Below, one piece after another: positions 10,636-28,919 of a DNA stretch of 64,000 nucleotides. The stretch comes from Spirochaeta africana DSM 8902 (lineage in GTDB: Bacteria; Spirochaetota; Spirochaetia; DSM-27196; DSM-8902). The stretch lies in the NCBI RefSeq assembly GCF_000242595.2, contig NC_017098.1, forward strand, positions 1,302,001-1,366,000. Direction: 5' to 3'. The first letter of the stretch is position 1, and the number at the start of each line of letters is the position of its first letter. Made by a program: the position numbers and the translations under genes. Below the pieces are notes generated by a model. That model was not told the origin of the DNA. It searched no databases and saw nothing but the letters and a program-made list of their open reading frames with translations.

Positions 10636-10640
10636 AAAAG

Positions 10641-10712
10641 AGCGAGAGACGGGATTCGAACCCGCGACATCCACCTTGGCAAGGTGGAGCTCTACCACTG
10701 AGCTACTCTCGC
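10641..10712 (-). tRNA. tRNA-Gly (anticodon GCC)
   Basis: Complete cloverleaf: acceptor stem GCGAGAG/CTCTCGC, anticodon stem CCACC/GGTGG around loop TTGCCAA, T-loop GGTTCGAATCC. The CCA end is not encoded. Last gene of the five-tRNA operon. Confidence 0.95.
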
Positions 10713-10765
10713 AAGTTTAGAAAAGTTCATGCGCTGCACTTTCCAGTGCGTTTCTCCGAGAGAAG

Positions 10766-10847
10766 TGCGAGAGAAGGGACTTGAACCCCCACACCCGAAG
10801 GTACCAGATCCTAAATCTGGCGTGTCTACCAATTCCACCACTCTCGC
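10766..10847 (-). tRNA. tRNA-Leu (anticodon TAG)
   Basis: Class II tRNA with a long variable arm (TACCTTCGGGT). Acceptor GCGAGAG/CTCTCGC, anticodon stem CCAGA/TCTGG around TTTAGGA. CCA is not encoded; discriminator is A. Confidence 0.95.
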
Positions 10848-10958
10848 AATCAGCGCCTTCTGTCAAGCGCACTTGCATGGGCGACTATAGCGGATTCAAA
10901 AAAAACCGTCAAGCGGTTTCGAAAATGAATCGCGGCGATAGTGCCGTCTTTTCTGTCT

Positions 10959-11031
10959 TGAGCCGTGTAGGGATCGAACCTACGACCCGCAGATTAAGAG
11001 TCTGCTGCTCTGCCAGCTGAGCTAACGGCCC
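10959..11031 (-). tRNA. tRNA-Lys (anticodon CTT)
   Basis: Acceptor GGGCCGT/ACGGCTC (one G-T pair), anticodon stem GCAGA/TCTGC around CTCTTAA, T-arm GTAGGTTCGATCCCTAC. CCA is not encoded. Confidence 0.95.
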
Positions 11032-11036
11032 AAAAG

Positions 11037-11110
11037 TACACCCGGCAGGATTCGAACCTGCGACCCACGGATTCGAAGTCCGGCACTCTATCCAGCTGAG
11101 CTACGGGTGC
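11037..11110 (-). tRNA. tRNA-Arg (anticodon TCG)
   Basis: Acceptor GCACCCG/CGGGTGT, anticodon loop CTTCGAA with TCG at 34-36, T-arm GCAGGTTCGAATCCTGC. The outermost pair of the anticodon stem is mismatched (C/T). CCA is not encoded. Confidence 0.93.
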
Positions 11111-11116
11111 ACATCG

Positions 11117-11189
11117 GGTGGATGACGGGGCTCGAACCCGCAACAACCAGAACCACAATCTGGTGCTCTACCATTGAACTACATCCACC
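11117..11189 (-). tRNA. tRNA-His (anticodon GTG)
   Basis: Acceptor GTGGATG/CATCCAC with the extra G(-1) opposite C73 that is diagnostic of tRNA-His; anticodon stem CCAGA/TCTGG around TTGTGGT. First gene of the five-tRNA operon. Confidence 0.95.
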
Positions 11190-23618: not shown

Positions 23619-25253
23619 GTGATTAGTGTACATGACGTAAAGCTTTCGTTTGGAAACACCCCGCTGTTCAAGGAGGTAAATCTCAAGTTTACCCCCGGTA
23701 ACTGCTATGGGGTTATCGGTGCCAATGGAGCCGGAAAATCCACCTTTCTCAAGATTCTCTCCGGCGAGATACAACCGGATCATGGGGATATAAGCATTTC
23801 TCCCGGATCGCGGGTAGCGGTACTGCGACAGGACCAACATGCCTTTGACGAACACAGTGTGATGCACACCGTAATTATGGGGCATAAGCATCTGTACGAC
23901 ATAATGCTGGAGCGCGATGCCATTTATGCCAAGGAGGATTTCTCCGAGGAGGATGGCATTCGGGCATCGACCCTGGAGGGGGAGTTTGCCGAGCTGAATG
24001 GCTGGGAGGCCGAGGCAGAGGCTTCGGTGCTGCTTAGCGGGCTGGGAATCGAGGAGAATCTGCACGAAAAAAGCATGGCAGAGCTCGAAGGCGGGCAGAA
24101 GGTCCGCGTGTTGCTGGCTCAGGCGTTGTTTGGTAATCCGGATATCCTGCTGCTGGATGAGCCGACCAACAATCTCGACCTTGAATCGATCAACTGGCTG
24201 GAGGGCTTCCTGGAGAAGTTTCCCAATACGGTGATTGTGGTTTCGCATGACCGTCACTTTCTGAACCGGGTGTGTACCCATATTGCCGACATTGATTTCC
24301 AGAAAATATCGGTCTATGCCGGTAACTATGATTTCTGGTATCAGGCCAGTCAGCTGGCACTGAAACAGGCTCGCGATCAGCAGAAACGGGCAGAGGATAA
24401 AGCCAAGGAACTGAAAGAGTTTATTCAGCGCTTTGCTTCCAACGCTGCTAAAAGCAAGCAGGCTACATCGCGGAAAAAGATGCTGGACAAGCTTAATCTG
24501 GACAACTTCCAGGCCAGCAGCCGCCGCTTTCCCTACGTCAGCTTCAAGCCCGATCGTGAGTGCGGCAAGGTGGTGCTGGAGATCAACGATCTCTCCAAGA
24601 CCGTAGAGGGGGAAAAACTGCTCGATTCCTTCTCGCTGACGGTAAACCGGGGTGACAAGATAGCCTTCGTTGGTCGTGAACATGCGGCCAAAAGTGTACT
24701 GTTCGAGATTATCGCCGGTGATGTGGAACCCGACAGCGGCAGCTTTGAGTGGGGGGTAACCATAACCCCCTCGTATTTTCCGAATGAAAGCTCACGCTTT
24801 TTCAAACAGAACATTTCGATAATAGACTGGCTGCGGCAGTACACCAGCTCCAATGACGAGAGCTATGTGCGCGGATTTCTGGGGAGGATGCTGTTCTCCG
24901 GTGATGATGCCCTGAAAAATGTGCAGGTGCTGTCGGGTGGAGAGAAGGTTCGCTGCATGCTGTCCAAGATGATGCTGGAAGAGGCCAATGTGCTGGTTAT
25001 GGATGACCCGACCAACCACCTGGACCTCGAGGCTATTACCGCCCTGAACAATGCCTTGATCGAGTATCCCGAGGTGGTCCTGTTTACCTCGCATGACCAT
25101 CAGTTTGTCCACAGTATTGCCAACCGGATTATCGAGATAACCCCGAACGGGGTTATCGACCGTATGATGCCGTTTGATGATTACCTCGAAGATAAAGGGG
25201 TTCAGAAGCTGCGCGACGAGCTGTATCACGGACATCAGCGGGCAGCTATTTAG
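23619..25253 (+). CDS. ABC-F family ATPase (YbiT/EttA-like translation factor)
   Basis: A 544-residue protein with two ABC ATPase domains and no membrane segments, the layout of ABC-F proteins that act on the ribosome. Domain 1 is intact: Walker A GANGAGKST at 34-42, signature ELEGGQKVR, Walker B ILLLDEPTNNLDL. The linker (about 245-300) is Lys/Gln-rich. Domain 2 keeps signature LSGGEKVR and VLVMDDPTNHLDL, but its Walker A is GREHAAKS at 352-359, lacking two glycines; Asp replaces Glu in the second Walker B. The start is GTG 23619 with AGGAG upstream; a TTGACG-N17-TACAAA promoter precedes it. The gene converges with the photolyase gene, overlapping by eight bases. Confidence 0.9.
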   Translation: MISVHDVKLSFGNTPLFKEVNLKFTPGNCYGVIGANGAGKSTFLKILSGEIQPDHGDISISPGSRVAVLRQDQHAFDEHSVMHTVIMGHKHLYDIMLERDAIYAKEDFSEEDGIRASTLEGEFAELNGWEAEAEASVLLSGLGIEENLHEKSMAELEGGQKVRVLLAQALFGNPDILLLDEPTNNLDLESINWLEGFLEKFPNTVIVVSHDRHFLNRVCTHIADIDFQKISVYAGNYDFWYQASQLALKQARDQQKRAEDKAKELKEFIQRFASNAAKSKQATSRKKMLDKLNLDNFQASSRRFPYVSFKPDRECGKVVLEINDLSKTVEGEKLLDSFSLTVNRGDKIAFVGREHAAKSVLFEIIAGDVEPDSGSFEWGVTITPSYFPNESSRFFKQNISIIDWLRQYTSSNDESYVRGFLGRMLFSGDDALKNVQVLSGGEKVRCMLSKMMLEEANVLVMDDPTNHLDLEAITALNNALIEYPEVVLFTSHDHQFVHSIANRIIEITPNGVIDRMMPFDDYLEDKGVQKLRDELYHGHQRAAI

Positions 25254-26646
25254 AGCGGGCAGTTATCTGATCATCGTTCCAGCGGGCTGCGTAGCTATCG
25301 ATATCGAACTTGCGTCGCAGCCCGTTGTCATTCATGTAGCGGATCTTGCCGAAAACCGGCCGCTCCTGCCAGGCGCGGTCGTGTTTGCCAAAACACCAGG
25401 CCACCCCGGCATACCCGTTCGGATCCCGCCCGTCAAGTTCATAGGTGTCGTTCAACCGGATAAGGGTGGCAAATCCTTCCTGCCAGGTTTTTGACCACTC
25501 CAGTACCTTTTTTCCCCAGTACATCCGCATATACCCGTGCATATGACCGGTTTTTCGCAGCTGATTCTGGGCCGCATTCCAGTACGGATCATGAGTGTCA
25601 GCCAACGCAAACTCTTCGTACCGGTAGATATATTCACGCGGATCACCTGCATGCTCTGCCAGGGTCCTGACTGCCCAGTCCGGCAGACAGTCGGGTGAAT
25701 CATAGGCCTGGTTATAAGTGGTAAAGTTACAGGACAGCTCGCGGCGCACAATCAGTTCCTCGAACAGCACGTCTACACCTTCGCTTGATCCGCACTCTCG
25801 TGCATCCAGCGCCATCTGCACCGGCGAAATCATGCCAAAGTGCAGATACGGGCTGAGCAGAGACGAGCCTGCAGCGGCGGGATCGTTGCGGTCCAGGTGG
25901 AACCGATCCAGGCGGCGGTCCAGGAAATCCTGCCAGCGTTGCTGCGCCGAGAGTTCGCCGCCGCTGAAACAGTCGACCGCGGTTGCCACACTGTCCATCG
26001 AGAAAAAACCGCTGATGTAGTCAGGATTGGTTACCCGTTCGGTATCTATACTTCGGATGTCCGACAGAAAATCCTCGACATCGATTGCCGCACTGTTCTT
26101 CAGTTCTACTTCCGGTATCGGCTGCAGAAAGTGCTGCAGCAGCGGCTGAATCCTTGGCCGCAGAATCCCGGCCGAGTAGGCCTCTTTGTGGTATGCATGG
26201 TGAACCGGCACCACCACGTTAGACTCTACCTGCACCAGCGGCGAGGCGGCGTGACTCTGCAGATAACGATACCAGCCGGCATGCACCCGCAGATAGCCGC
26301 GGTCAAGCACCGTGAGCGCTGCATGCCGGGAAAGACCGGCAATGATCTGTGGCGGATCGCCTGCCACTACCTGCAGCCTGATGCCGCGGTCAGCCAGTTT
26401 TGCTGCCGTTTCCCGGATCCCCTCCAAAAGGAACCGGTAGTGACGCTCCTGGGCATCCGGATAATCAGGGGTCAGGCAGAACACCACTGCCAGGGGCAGC
26501 CCCCGCGTATTGGCATGGTGAACAGCATACTCAAGGGCATGGTTCCAGGTGCTGCGCAGTGAGGACTGCATCCAGTACAGAACATAGCGATGGGGAGAGG
26601 CGGCTGACGCCGCACCAAGGGTGGTTACTCGTTCACGTTGAGACAT
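25246..26646 (-). CDS. phr: Class II deoxyribodipyrimidine photolyase
   Basis: A 466-residue FAD enzyme that splits UV-induced cyclobutane pyrimidine dimers using blue light. Class II features are clear: N-terminal YVLYWMQSSLRSTWNHALEY, the ELIVRRELSCNFTTYN helix and the C-terminal flavin and DNA contact block MHGYMRMYWGKKVLEWS with NDTYELDGRDPNGYAGVAWCFGKHD. I take the start as ATG 26646. The open frame continues 178 codons upstream across the divergent activator gene and is not credible there. No Shine-Dalgarno is visible; a TATTTT box lies seven bases before the ATG, so it may be leaderless. Confidence 0.92.
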   Translation of the reverse strand: MSQRERVTTLGAASAASPHRYVLYWMQSSLRSTWNHALEYAVHHANTRGLPLAVVFCLTPDYPDAQERHYRFLLEGIRETAAKLADRGIRLQVVAGDPPQIIAGLSRHAALTVLDRGYLRVHAGWYRYLQSHAASPLVQVESNVVVPVHHAYHKEAYSAGILRPRIQPLLQHFLQPIPEVELKNSAAIDVEDFLSDIRSIDTERVTNPDYISGFFSMDSVATAVDCFSGGELSAQQRWQDFLDRRLDRFHLDRNDPAAAGSSLLSPYLHFGMISPVQMALDARECGSSEGVDVLFEELIVRRELSCNFTTYNQAYDSPDCLPDWAVRTLAEHAGDPREYIYRYEEFALADTHDPYWNAAQNQLRKTGHMHGYMRMYWGKKVLEWSKTWQEGFATLIRLNDTYELDGRDPNGYAGVAWCFGKHDRAWQERPVFGKIRYMNDNGLRRKFDIDSYAARWNDDQITARSK

Positions 26647-26685: not shown

Positions 26686-28104
26686 ATGGGCGATACCAAC
26701 ACCGGAACAAGCGAAAAACCTGCTGCCGTACTGATTGTAGAAGACGATCCGGTGAGCTCCGAGCTCTACTCGGTCCAGATCCAGGACAAGCTTCCTGCGC
26801 AATGTGTGGTCTGCGATGACTCCCGCAAGGTTTTGCCGATCCTGGTCCAGCACAACATTGATCTGATTATTCTGGATCTTAACATGCCGCATATCTCCGG
26901 GCAGGAGGTGCTGGCACAGGTCAATCTGCAGTTTCCGGATATCCCGGTGGTGGTGGTTACCAGCGAGGACAGTATTCAGGTCGCGGTTGACTGCATGCGC
27001 CATGGCGCGTTCGACTTTATCACCAAGCCGGTGGCCGAGGCCCGGCTGATTACGGCGGTACAGCATGGCTTGCGGATCCGCTCGCTGCAGCAGGAGATCC
27101 ATTCCCTGTCGGATCGGCTGCAGGGGCTGCAGATCCGTAATCCGGAGGCCTTCTCCGGGATTATTACCGTCAGCCATCATATGCGCAGCATCTTTTCGTA
27201 TATCGAAGCCGTTGCCTCAAGCCCGAAACCGGTACTTGTACTGGGCGACAGCGGCACCGGCAAGGAGCTGATCGCCCAGGTCCTCCACCAGCTCAGTGGT
27301 CGAAGTGGTTCATTTGTGCCGGTAAACGTGAGTGGCCTTGATGACACCATGTTCTCAGACGCGCTGTTCGGGCACACCAAGGGTGCATTTACCGGTGCGA
27401 ACACTGCACGCAGCGGCCTGGTAGAGCAGGCTCGCGGGGGTACCCTCTTTCTGGATGAGATCGGTGATCTGCCGATGGGGCCCCAGGTCAAGCTGCTGCG
27501 ACTCCTGCAGGAAGGGGAGTACTACCCCCTTGGCGCTGATTCCCCCAAAACCGCCTCGGTGCGGGTTGTCGCCGCCACCAACGCCAATCTTACCCAGAAA
27601 ATGGAGCAGGGGGAGTTCCGCAAGGATCTGTACTACCGCCTGATGGCGCACACCGTCCGGGTGCCAGCCCTTCGCGACCGGATGGAGGATATCCCGCATC
27701 TGGTGGAGTATTTTGTAACCCAGGCCTGTGCGGAACTGTCACGCCCGCGTTTACAGGTACCGCAGGAGATCTACCGGATTCTGGCAGGGTATGAGTTCCC
27801 CGGCAATATCCGGGAGCTGCAGTCCATGGTGTTCGATGCCGCCAGTCGGGCCACCGGTGCACAGCTGCCGGTTGAACCCTTCCGTACCTATGTGGTCGGG
27901 CCGCCGAGTGTCCCGGATGCCTCCGGCATCCCCCAGGGCGGGGGTACCAGCATCAGCTATGCCGGGCAGTTTCCCACCATGGAGCAGGTGGAGCAGTTTT
28001 TTATGGAAGAAGCCCTCAGAATCGCGAGTGGAAACCAGTCTCGCGCTGCCGGTCTGTTAGGTATCAGCCAGTCGACCCTTAGCAGGCGTCTCAAGACCGA
28101 GTAG
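26686..28104 (+). CDS. Sigma-54-dependent response regulator (NtrC/AtoC type)
   Basis: A 472-residue activator with all three domains. Receiver (about 13-130): acidic pair ED(19)D, phosphoacceptor Asp64, Thr92 and Lys114. AAA+ domain (about 155-390): Walker A GDSGTGKE at 187-194 and the sigma-54-contacting GAFTGA loop at 233-238, Walker B GGTLFLDEIGDLP. A Fis-type helix-turn-helix closes the protein (SRAAGLLGISQSTLSRRL). It therefore activates RNA polymerase carrying sigma-54 from distant sites. No histidine kinase is adjacent, so it is an orphan. Immediately downstream lie two palindromes and a near-perfect sigma-54 promoter (28106-28264), the likely targets. Confidence 0.93.
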   Translation: MGDTNTGTSEKPAAVLIVEDDPVSSELYSVQIQDKLPAQCVVCDDSRKVLPILVQHNIDLIILDLNMPHISGQEVLAQVNLQFPDIPVVVVTSEDSIQVAVDCMRHGAFDFITKPVAEARLITAVQHGLRIRSLQQEIHSLSDRLQGLQIRNPEAFSGIITVSHHMRSIFSYIEAVASSPKPVLVLGDSGTGKELIAQVLHQLSGRSGSFVPVNVSGLDDTMFSDALFGHTKGAFTGANTARSGLVEQARGGTLFLDEIGDLPMGPQVKLLRLLQEGEYYPLGADSPKTASVRVVAATNANLTQKMEQGEFRKDLYYRLMAHTVRVPALRDRMEDIPHLVEYFVTQACAELSRPRLQVPQEIYRILAGYEFPGNIRELQSMVFDAASRATGAQLPVEPFRTYVVGPPSVPDASGIPQGGGTSISYAGQFPTMEQVEQFFMEEALRIASGNQSRAAGLLGISQSTLSRRLKTE

Positions 28105-28105
28105 T

Positions 28106-28120
28106 TATGCAAAATGCATA
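28106..28120. promoter_or_regulatory. Candidate activator-binding site 1 (enhancer)
   Basis: TATGCA-AAA-TGCATA, a 15-bp palindrome starting just after the activator stop codon, about 140 bp upstream of the sigma-54 promoter. With site 2 it shares ATGCAAA and GCATAGCC. Confidence 0.5.
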
Positions 28121-28133
28121 GCCGGTTGTTTTT

Positions 28134-28148
28134 TATGCAAATTGCATA
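28134..28148. promoter_or_regulatory. Candidate activator-binding site 2 (enhancer)
   Basis: TATGCAA-A-TTGCATA, a perfect 15-bp palindrome centred 28 bp from site 1 and about 110 bp upstream of the sigma-54 promoter, a usual distance for NtrC-type enhancers. Confidence 0.55.
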
Positions 28149-28247
28149 GCCCTGTCGCACTGGCTTGTGCGTGGTGAACCCTCTTGGATGTTGGCTGAAA
28201 GCATATAACTCATTACATACAAACAATATATGATCTCTAAGTGCATG

Positions 28248-28264
28248 TTGGCACATAAATTGCA
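28248..28264 (+). promoter_or_regulatory. Sigma-54 (-24/-12) promoter
   Basis: TTGGCAC-N5-TTGCA matches the sigma-54 consensus (TGGCAC, five bases, TTGCA/T) at every conserved position. Predicted transcription start is near 28275. Confidence 0.75.
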
Positions 28265-28274
28265 CATAGTATAC

Positions 28275-28438
28275 TGCACAGCAAATGGGCTGGTAATGGG
28301 AATCACCAGCCAGAAATGTAAGTAGTGATGTAAAAAATAGATATAAAAAGTAATTCTTCCGCAGCTACTGCGGTTGTTCCCATTCCTCCCTCCCTCATCC
28401 TCATACGGGGGCAAGTCGTTGACTTGTCCCCGTATTTT
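28275..28438 (+). ncRNA. Candidate sigma-54-dependent small RNA
   Basis: The stretch from the predicted sigma-54 start to the hairpin at 28403-28435 has no credible reading frame. It can form three stem-loops: 28288-28311 (7 bp, GGCTGGT/ACCAGCC), 28359-28373 (6 bp, CCGCAG/CTGCGG) and the terminator-like hairpin. Between the second and third lies an unpaired, strongly C/U-rich tract (28378-28402, with CCUCCCUCCCUC) that is complementary to GGAGG-type ribosome-binding sites. The layout resembles sigma-54-driven regulatory RNAs such as Qrr, but similarity to any known RNA is not claimed. The alternative is that this is a 5' leader of the CheY-like gene with an attenuator. Confidence 0.4.
28403..28438 (+). 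terminator. Terminator-like hairpin before the CheY-like gene
   Basis: A 14-bp stem (ATACGGGGGCAAGT with ACTTGTCCCCGTAT, one G-U pair), 5-base loop and a short TTTT tail. The TTGACT -35 box of the next promoter lies inside it. Confidence 0.55.
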
Positions 28439-28446
28439 GGTATACT
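28419..28446 (+). promoter_or_regulatory. Sigma-70 promoter of the CheY-like gene
   Basis: TTGACT (28419-28424), 16 bp, TATACT (28441-28446). Predicted start near 28453, 32 bases before the gene. Confidence 0.6.
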
Positions 28447-28484
28447 GCAAGAGGACGCGTATCTATGTACCAGGAGATGCCAGC

Positions 28485-28919
28485 ATGAAGACCAAATCCG
28501 ATTTTCCCAGCATCAATGACAAGGAACCAGAGGGGCTCAAGCCAGACGGCTCACCGTTTCGCGTGCTTGTGGTTGATGATTCCATGTTTACCGGAAAACA
28601 GCTCAGCCAGATTCTCACCAGTGCCGGTTTCGAGGTCGTAGCTACTGCTGGCGACGGGGCAGAAGGTGTAGAAAAGTACAAGGAACTTCACCCGAATATC
28701 GATCTGGTTACGATGGACATCACCATGCCCAAAATGGATGGGGTAACCGCGCTGGAGCATATCATCGCCTACGACAAGGAAGCCAGGGTAGTGATGATCT
28801 CCGCCCTTGGGAAGAACGATCTGGTGAAGAAATCCCTGCTGCTCGGCGCCAAGAACTACATCGTGAAGCCTCTGGACCGTAAAAAGGTGCTGGAGCGGAT
28901 TATCGCCATACTGAAGTAG
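28485..28919 (+). CDS. CheY-like single-domain response regulator
   Basis: A 144-residue receiver domain with no output domain, preceded by about 24 extra residues rich in Lys, Asp and Pro. Asp31-Asp32, phosphoacceptor Asp78 (VTMDITMP), Ser106 and Lys128 (VKPLD) are all present, so it should be phosphorylatable. It may serve the flagellar motor or a phosphorelay; the sequence does not decide. ATG 28485 has CAGGAG upstream; the longer open frame to 28374 includes the promoter and hairpin and is rejected. It stands alone behind its own sigma-70 promoter and downstream of the sigma-54 island. Confidence 0.85.
   Translation: MKTKSDFPSINDKEPEGLKPDGSPFRVLVVDDSMFTGKQLSQILTSAGFEVVATAGDGAEGVEKYKELHPNIDLVTMDITMPKMDGVTALEHIIAYDKEARVVMISALGKNDLVKKSLLLGAKNYIVKPLDRKKVLERIIAILK

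Follow-up and report, generated by a model that had tools for sequence, protein, structure and literature searches.

A predicted sigma-54-dependent small RNA with a tandem GUAAAAA array next to an NtrC-type activator gene in Spirochaeta africana and its relatives

Background

Does the spacer that follows an NtrC-type activator gene in the soda-lake spirochaete Spirochaeta africana hold the gene of a small RNA, and if so, how could such an RNA act? An initial annotation of the locus proposed that the activator, a response regulator, drives a discrete, roughly 165-nt RNA through a sigma-54 promoter and remote palindromic enhancers, a proposal that is strongly supported by the comparative genomics presented here.

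Methods

The window, i.e., the whole stretch of DNA that was analyzed (64,000 nucleotides), comprises bases 1302001-1366000 of a single-contig genome of 3,285,855 bases (G000). The order was sampled with 46 genomes from 8 families, most of the relatives being represented by draft genomes, and a promoter-anchored alignment was built for 36 genomes. The core letters TGGCA and TGC belonged to the search pattern for this alignment, so that their invariance across the 36 genomes is given by construction. Arrays were controlled with reversed patterns and shuffled sequences, and some of the counts vary with the search pattern chosen. Protein labels in the regulon and around the arrays were assigned by reading the sequences by eye, with no family match. 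Five clustered tRNA genes (Gly, Leu, Lys, Arg, and His) were also seen in the window, on the minus strand at 10640-11188.

Results

The features of the locus are listed in Table 1. According to Pfam, the activator combines a receiver domain, a GAFTGA-bearing AAA+/sigma-54 interaction domain and a Fis-type helix-turn-helix; the GAFTGA motif and the stop codon at 28102-28104 agree exactly with what had been annotated. Orthologues (E ≤ 1e-90) are encoded in 40 of the 46 genomes of the order, while the score of the protein against TIGR02915 (292 bits) is below the cut-off of that family (502.6 bits). The genome also encodes RpoN, and rpoN is present in 20/20 high-quality genomes. Divergent to the activator lies a gene for a phr2-type photolyase (25246-26646, minus strand; score below the NCBIfam cut-off); many relatives likewise have its start region upstream of their activator gene.

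Table 1 Features of the activator locus (positions in the window)
Feature	Position	Strand	Basis or remark
NtrC-type response regulator / enhancer-binding protein	26686-28104	+	Pfam; orthologues in relatives
Palindrome 1, TATGCAAAATGCATA, putative enhancer site	28106-28120		Exact match; ~142 bp upstream of -24
Palindrome 2, TATGCAAATTGCATA, putative enhancer site	28134-28148		Exact match; ~114 bp upstream of -24
Sigma-54 promoter TTGGCAC-N5-TTGCA, TTGGCACATAAATTGCA	28248-28264	+	Strict consensus match; kept in 36 genomes
Predicted small RNA, ~165 nt	28276-28439	+	Begins ~12 nt beyond -12, ends at terminator
Degenerate array GTAAGTA (28318), GTAAAAA (28330), ATAAAAA (28343)	28318-28349	+	Spacing 12, 13
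Intrinsic terminator-like hairpin and T-run	28403-28439	+	Stem-loop 28403-28435, -24.7 kcal/mol, then TTTTGG
Sigma-70-like promoter of the CheY-like gene, TTGACT-N16-TATACT	28419-28446	+	Overlaps terminator
CheY-like response regulator	28485-28919	+	Pfam Response_reg; neighbour with own promoter

Both palindromes were recovered by exact match, although the gap between the stop codon and the first of them is 1 bp and not 2 bp as initially given. They belong to a class (ATGC-N5-GCAT) that is placed at regular distances from the promoter throughout the 36-genome alignment: ~113/142 bp in the genome of the window and in G022 and G023, ~92/176 bp in families f3, f4, and f6, and ~97/127 bp in f7. 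The double palindrome was found in 21/46 genomes, with 0 matches for the reversed control pattern, and sites of the palindrome 1 class precede sigma-54 promoters in relatives as well. The promoter itself stands exactly where it had been annotated and is one of only 5 matches to the strict sigma-54 consensus in the whole 3.29-Mb genome. Its consensus among the 36 genomes is TTGGCACG-N4-TTGCW (also given as CTTGGCACG-N4-TTGCW), in which two letters outside the search pattern are conserved, namely a G following TGGCAC (33/36) and a W following TTGC (36/36). The initial annotation had made its proposal depend on the presence of a -24/-12 element in relatives, and such an element is conserved in the 36 genomes. 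Together with palindromic sites at regular distances and a GAFTGA activator, it gives the locus the features expected of a sigma-54-dependent small RNA gene.

The conserved core of the predicted RNA, absent from the initial annotation, is a tandem array of the motif ADGUAAAAA (D = A, G, or U) with a period of 11-13 nt. Between +20 and +260 of the 36 regions, 97 copies of GTAAWA were observed vs. 13.2 ± 3.6 in shuffled sequences, and spacings of 11, 12, or 13 nt between copies occurred 45 times vs. 0.1. At least two copies are present in 26/36 genomes, copy number ranges from 1 (family f7) to 7 at a fixed period, and an A occupies position -2 in 97% of the copies, even though it was not part of the search. 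Triple arrays gave 22 matches in the 46 genomes, the reversed pattern gave 1. The longest array (L096, G028) has seven GTAAAA copies at an exact 12-nt period, located 121-199 nt past the promoter, and across genomes the distance between promoter and array varies from 28 to > 120 nt; the array is always on the transcribed strand and ahead of the terminator. The window's own array is degenerate, yet with a matrix derived from the other genomes its triple score (p about 0.0005) is far above that of shuffled sequences. The motif is predicted to be mostly unpaired (mean unpaired probability of 0.71 vs. 0.40 for the remainder of the RNA), a value just modestly higher than the 0.63 of other A-rich segments. 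A literature search on GUAAAA and small RNA returned nothing relevant.

The succession of promoter, array and terminator-like hairpin is found in most of the 36 genomes, and this conservation indicates that a discrete non-coding RNA of ~165 nt very probably exists. The terminator-like hairpin proposed for its end was confirmed in the window, and an automatic terminator test gave a negative or weak result for a number of genomes (e.g., G005, G020, G023, G026, and G027), partly because the hairpin has no clear T-run or because contigs end. Two further elements of the initial annotation are present in the window but not conserved: the internal hairpins (28288-28311 and 28359-28373) are lineage-specific, and the C/U-rich tract (CCTCCCTCCCTC at 28385-28396) fails in the role of pairing with ribosome-binding sites. 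As a functional element the tract was rejected, CCTCC/CTCCT following the last motif in just 8/36 genomes and in some of these beyond the RNA. Three genomes of genus g8 (G019, G020, and G021; loci L230, L121, and L120) carry CACCUCCUUU, which equals the anti-Shine-Dalgarno end of 16S rRNA, directly 3' of the last motif. No Rfam family matches the window's RNA at the gathering or at a relaxed threshold; membership in a known family was also rejected for ten relative loci, for which a group II intron lying apart from the array was the sole match.

The layout of palindromes, sigma-54 promoter and short RNA recurs in 36 genomes of the order, in about 32 of them directly 3' of the NtrC-type activator gene. 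G019-G021 have it ahead of a CheY-like gene, their activator being located elsewhere or not recovered, and G045 has it within a lipoprotein gene leader. A CheY-like gene comes next in many genomes, including that of the window, where its -35 element TTGACT (28419-28424) lies inside the terminator hairpin; a similar TTGNNN-N17-TATAAN is found at the same place in relatives, most of which have a sigma-70-like promoter of their own for cheY. Promoter and array persist where another gene, or a gene on the opposite strand, comes next, which argues for a free RNA, and the CheY-like gene is probably outside the RNA unit. A second copy of this gene (78% identical) was noted at G000:C1:1885614-1886045 on the minus strand, and in relatives such as G001 one CheY-like copy comes after a CheX-like gene.

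The strict promoter-plus-array pattern had no match in 349 genomes of other orders. When activator loci outside the order were read, three (G219, G348, and G367) were seen to have a sigma-54-like site, 2-3 GUAAWAA copies and a terminator-like hairpin, and members of family f35 have palindrome, promoter, CheY, and copies of a UUAAAAA variant. Activators outside the spirochaetes (L031-L038) come with no comparable array; in L036 the activator is divergent from the sigma-54 promoter of an envelope gene. In L033, from a deltaproteobacterial MAG, TTGGCACAGTTCGTGC stands after a related activator and ahead of a response regulator gene whose leader contains GTAAAGTTAAAAAGG; this arrangement may be an ancient form of the layout.

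The double palindrome also occurs at many further loci (0 matches for the reversed control), and at most of the readable ones a sigma-54 site lies no more than about 250 bp away, ahead of a lipoprotein gene whose lipobox reads CSNPFG, CANPFG or the like. A second member in the genome of the window, near 970.5 kb (L072), encodes a lipoprotein of 237 aa (CSNPMGSS) whose C-terminus resembles Lcl_C, with a score slightly under the Pfam cut-off. Since the same palindromes stand ahead of sigma-54 lipoprotein promoters, the RNA would be part of an envelope regulon; these lipoprotein genes had no place in the initial annotation, whose 'self-contained unit' is therefore too narrow a description. Arrays turned up at other genes too: G045 has one in the leader of a gene for a giant lipoprotein, G010 one behind a sigma-54 lipoprotein gene, G030 one that separates pilin-like from chaperone-like genes, and G015 a second multi-copy array (L223, G015:C55, 1352-1394) located after the gene of a probable outer-membrane protein and before that of a small membrane protein. 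GUAAAAA as a general element of activator or lipoprotein leaders was considered and rejected. Two-copy arrays searched genome-wide as a target signature were not enriched vs. the reversed control, which means that no group of target mRNAs shows up by this route. As a side observation, the lipoproteins of the regulon (L190, L195, L196, L198, L202, and L215, as well as L072) share the lipobox C[SA]NPFG or a similar one, in many cases with an acidic or Ser/Gly linker behind it, and this lipobox could be a surface-sorting signal.

Discussion

The explanation that we favor overall, and regard as reasonably probable, is an activator-driven sigma-54 RNA whose array acts as a decoy for an RNA-binding factor. 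Once switched on by a kinase, the response regulator would bind both palindromes 3' of its own gene and make sigma-54 RNA polymerase start near 28275, giving rise to a discrete RNA that ends at the terminator and has the mostly unpaired array as its core. Through the same palindromes the activator would drive surface lipoprotein genes too, while the array would titrate, in trans, a factor that acts on envelope-protein mRNAs, as CrcZ and CsrB do with other motifs. The decoy is suggested by fixed-period multi-copy arrays, which point to protein binding, and by arrays at envelope mRNAs, which point to the same factor; several unpaired copies of one motif, as a decoy should have, are predicted, and 1 to 7 copies at a fixed period are as expected for protein-binding arrays. 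On the other hand, family f7 keeps a single copy, for which a sponge has no need, and the degeneracy of the window's array also speaks against a decoy. Titration thus appears to be the most likely action of the RNA, though we put it forward with reserve. More tentatively still, the locus may represent a new and widespread spirochaete small RNA family, in which the 12-nt ADGUAAAAA array titrates an RNA-binding protein and forms the hub of an Hfq-independent control of lipoproteins and pilins, one sigma-54 activator switching both the RNA and the lipoprotein genes.

The main rival, in our judgment rather unlikely, is a base-pairing small RNA whose unpaired GUAAAAA copies act in trans, Qrr-like, as seeds for UUUUUAC in target mRNAs. 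Highly conserved 7-mers predicted to be single-stranded would suit such seeds, as would the retention of a single copy in some lineages, and regulons that couple envelope genes with a repressing small RNA are known, those of the sigma-E small RNAs among them. However, seeds consisting nearly of A and U alone would pair weakly, neither a strict 12-nt period nor up to seven copies would be needed, no UUUUUAC was found by eye in the lipoprotein leaders inspected, and the Hfq profile (PF17209) detected no protein in the 46 genomes while detecting the controls, although a very divergent Hfq-like protein could escape it.

It is improbable that the RNA is a leader or attenuator of the CheY-like gene, with sigma-54 transcripts at times extending past the hairpin as far as cheY: the terminator stands immediately ahead of this gene, which is the next one in many genomes, but the gene's own sigma-70-like promoter, within or downstream of the terminator in most relatives, and the persistence of promoter and array ahead of other genes do not fit. 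The repeats might instead work as DNA, a protein bound to tandem GTAAAAA sites controlling the promoter or cheY. Tandem sites of a single orientation downstream of a promoter would allow this, yet a 12-bp period is out of register with the helical repeat, the distance to the promoter varies, and the copies always lie on the transcribed strand before a terminator, in G010 even after a gene, which makes this reading very improbable. Hardly any weight is given to a sigma-70 start at TTGGCA-N16-TATACT with a sigma-54-like overlap by chance; TTGGCA at 28248 and TATACT at 28270-28275 make a fair site in the window, but a -10-like hexamer occurs there in just 2/36 genomes, whereas the -24/-12 element is conserved, including letters outside the search.

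For an order in which Hfq was not detected, the locus offers a predicted, conserved RNA whose defined motif could be used as bait in the search for a new RNA-binding regulator. It also connects this RNA with a set of surface lipoproteins under sigma-54 control, a theme known from the RpoN pathway of Borrelia as well (PMC3037356).

Comparison with known systems

Several small RNAs invite comparison. The Qrr RNAs of Vibrio pair with mRNAs through Hfq. The predicted RNA resembles the LuxO-Qrr system as a sigma-54-dependent small RNA under an NtrC-type response regulator; it differs in the lack of an Rfam match and in having an array in place of the Qrr pairing stems, and with Hfq not found in 46 genomes the Qrr-type mechanism considered initially is unlikely. 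CsrB/RsmZ decoys carry a repeated GGA motif. Here, too, a multi-copy single-stranded motif suggests protein titration, but GGA is not repeated, occurring once in 28276-28439. In the PrsK-PrsR/RpoN PEP-CTERM regulon, an NtrC-like regulator and RpoN control surface-protein genes (PMC9850573). This parallels the lipoprotein genes described above, although our activator is below the TIGR02915 cut-off. To our knowledge, no small RNA has been described for that regulon.

Two precedents for the layout come from Pseudomonas and Azotobacter. NrsZ of Pseudomonas aeruginosa is encoded in the spacer downstream of ntrC and activated by NtrC with RpoN (PMC9308961), and it shares with the predicted RNA the position 3' of an NtrC-type activator gene and an RpoN-type promoter; unlike the latter, NrsZ uses a conserved ACAGGCAG motif, is processed and has no tandem array, and its regulon differs. 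In the CbrB-CrcZ system of Pseudomonas and Azotobacter, the small RNA gene adjoins that of its NtrC-type activator and has an RpoN promoter (PMC6292655, PMC4063720). The likeness extends to repeated, A-rich unpaired motifs and to the proposed titration of an RNA-binding protein, while the motifs (ADGUAAAAA with a 12-nt period vs. CA motifs in CrcZ) and the phylum differ, no sequence or covariance match was found in Rfam, and Hfq, the partner of CrcZ together with Crc, was not found here, so that neither the CrcZ nor the Qrr mechanism is transferable as such. The RNA would thus be a new family with a known architecture, that of an activator-adjacent RpoN small RNA, and an unusual core, i.e., CrcZ-like with another motif and another partner.
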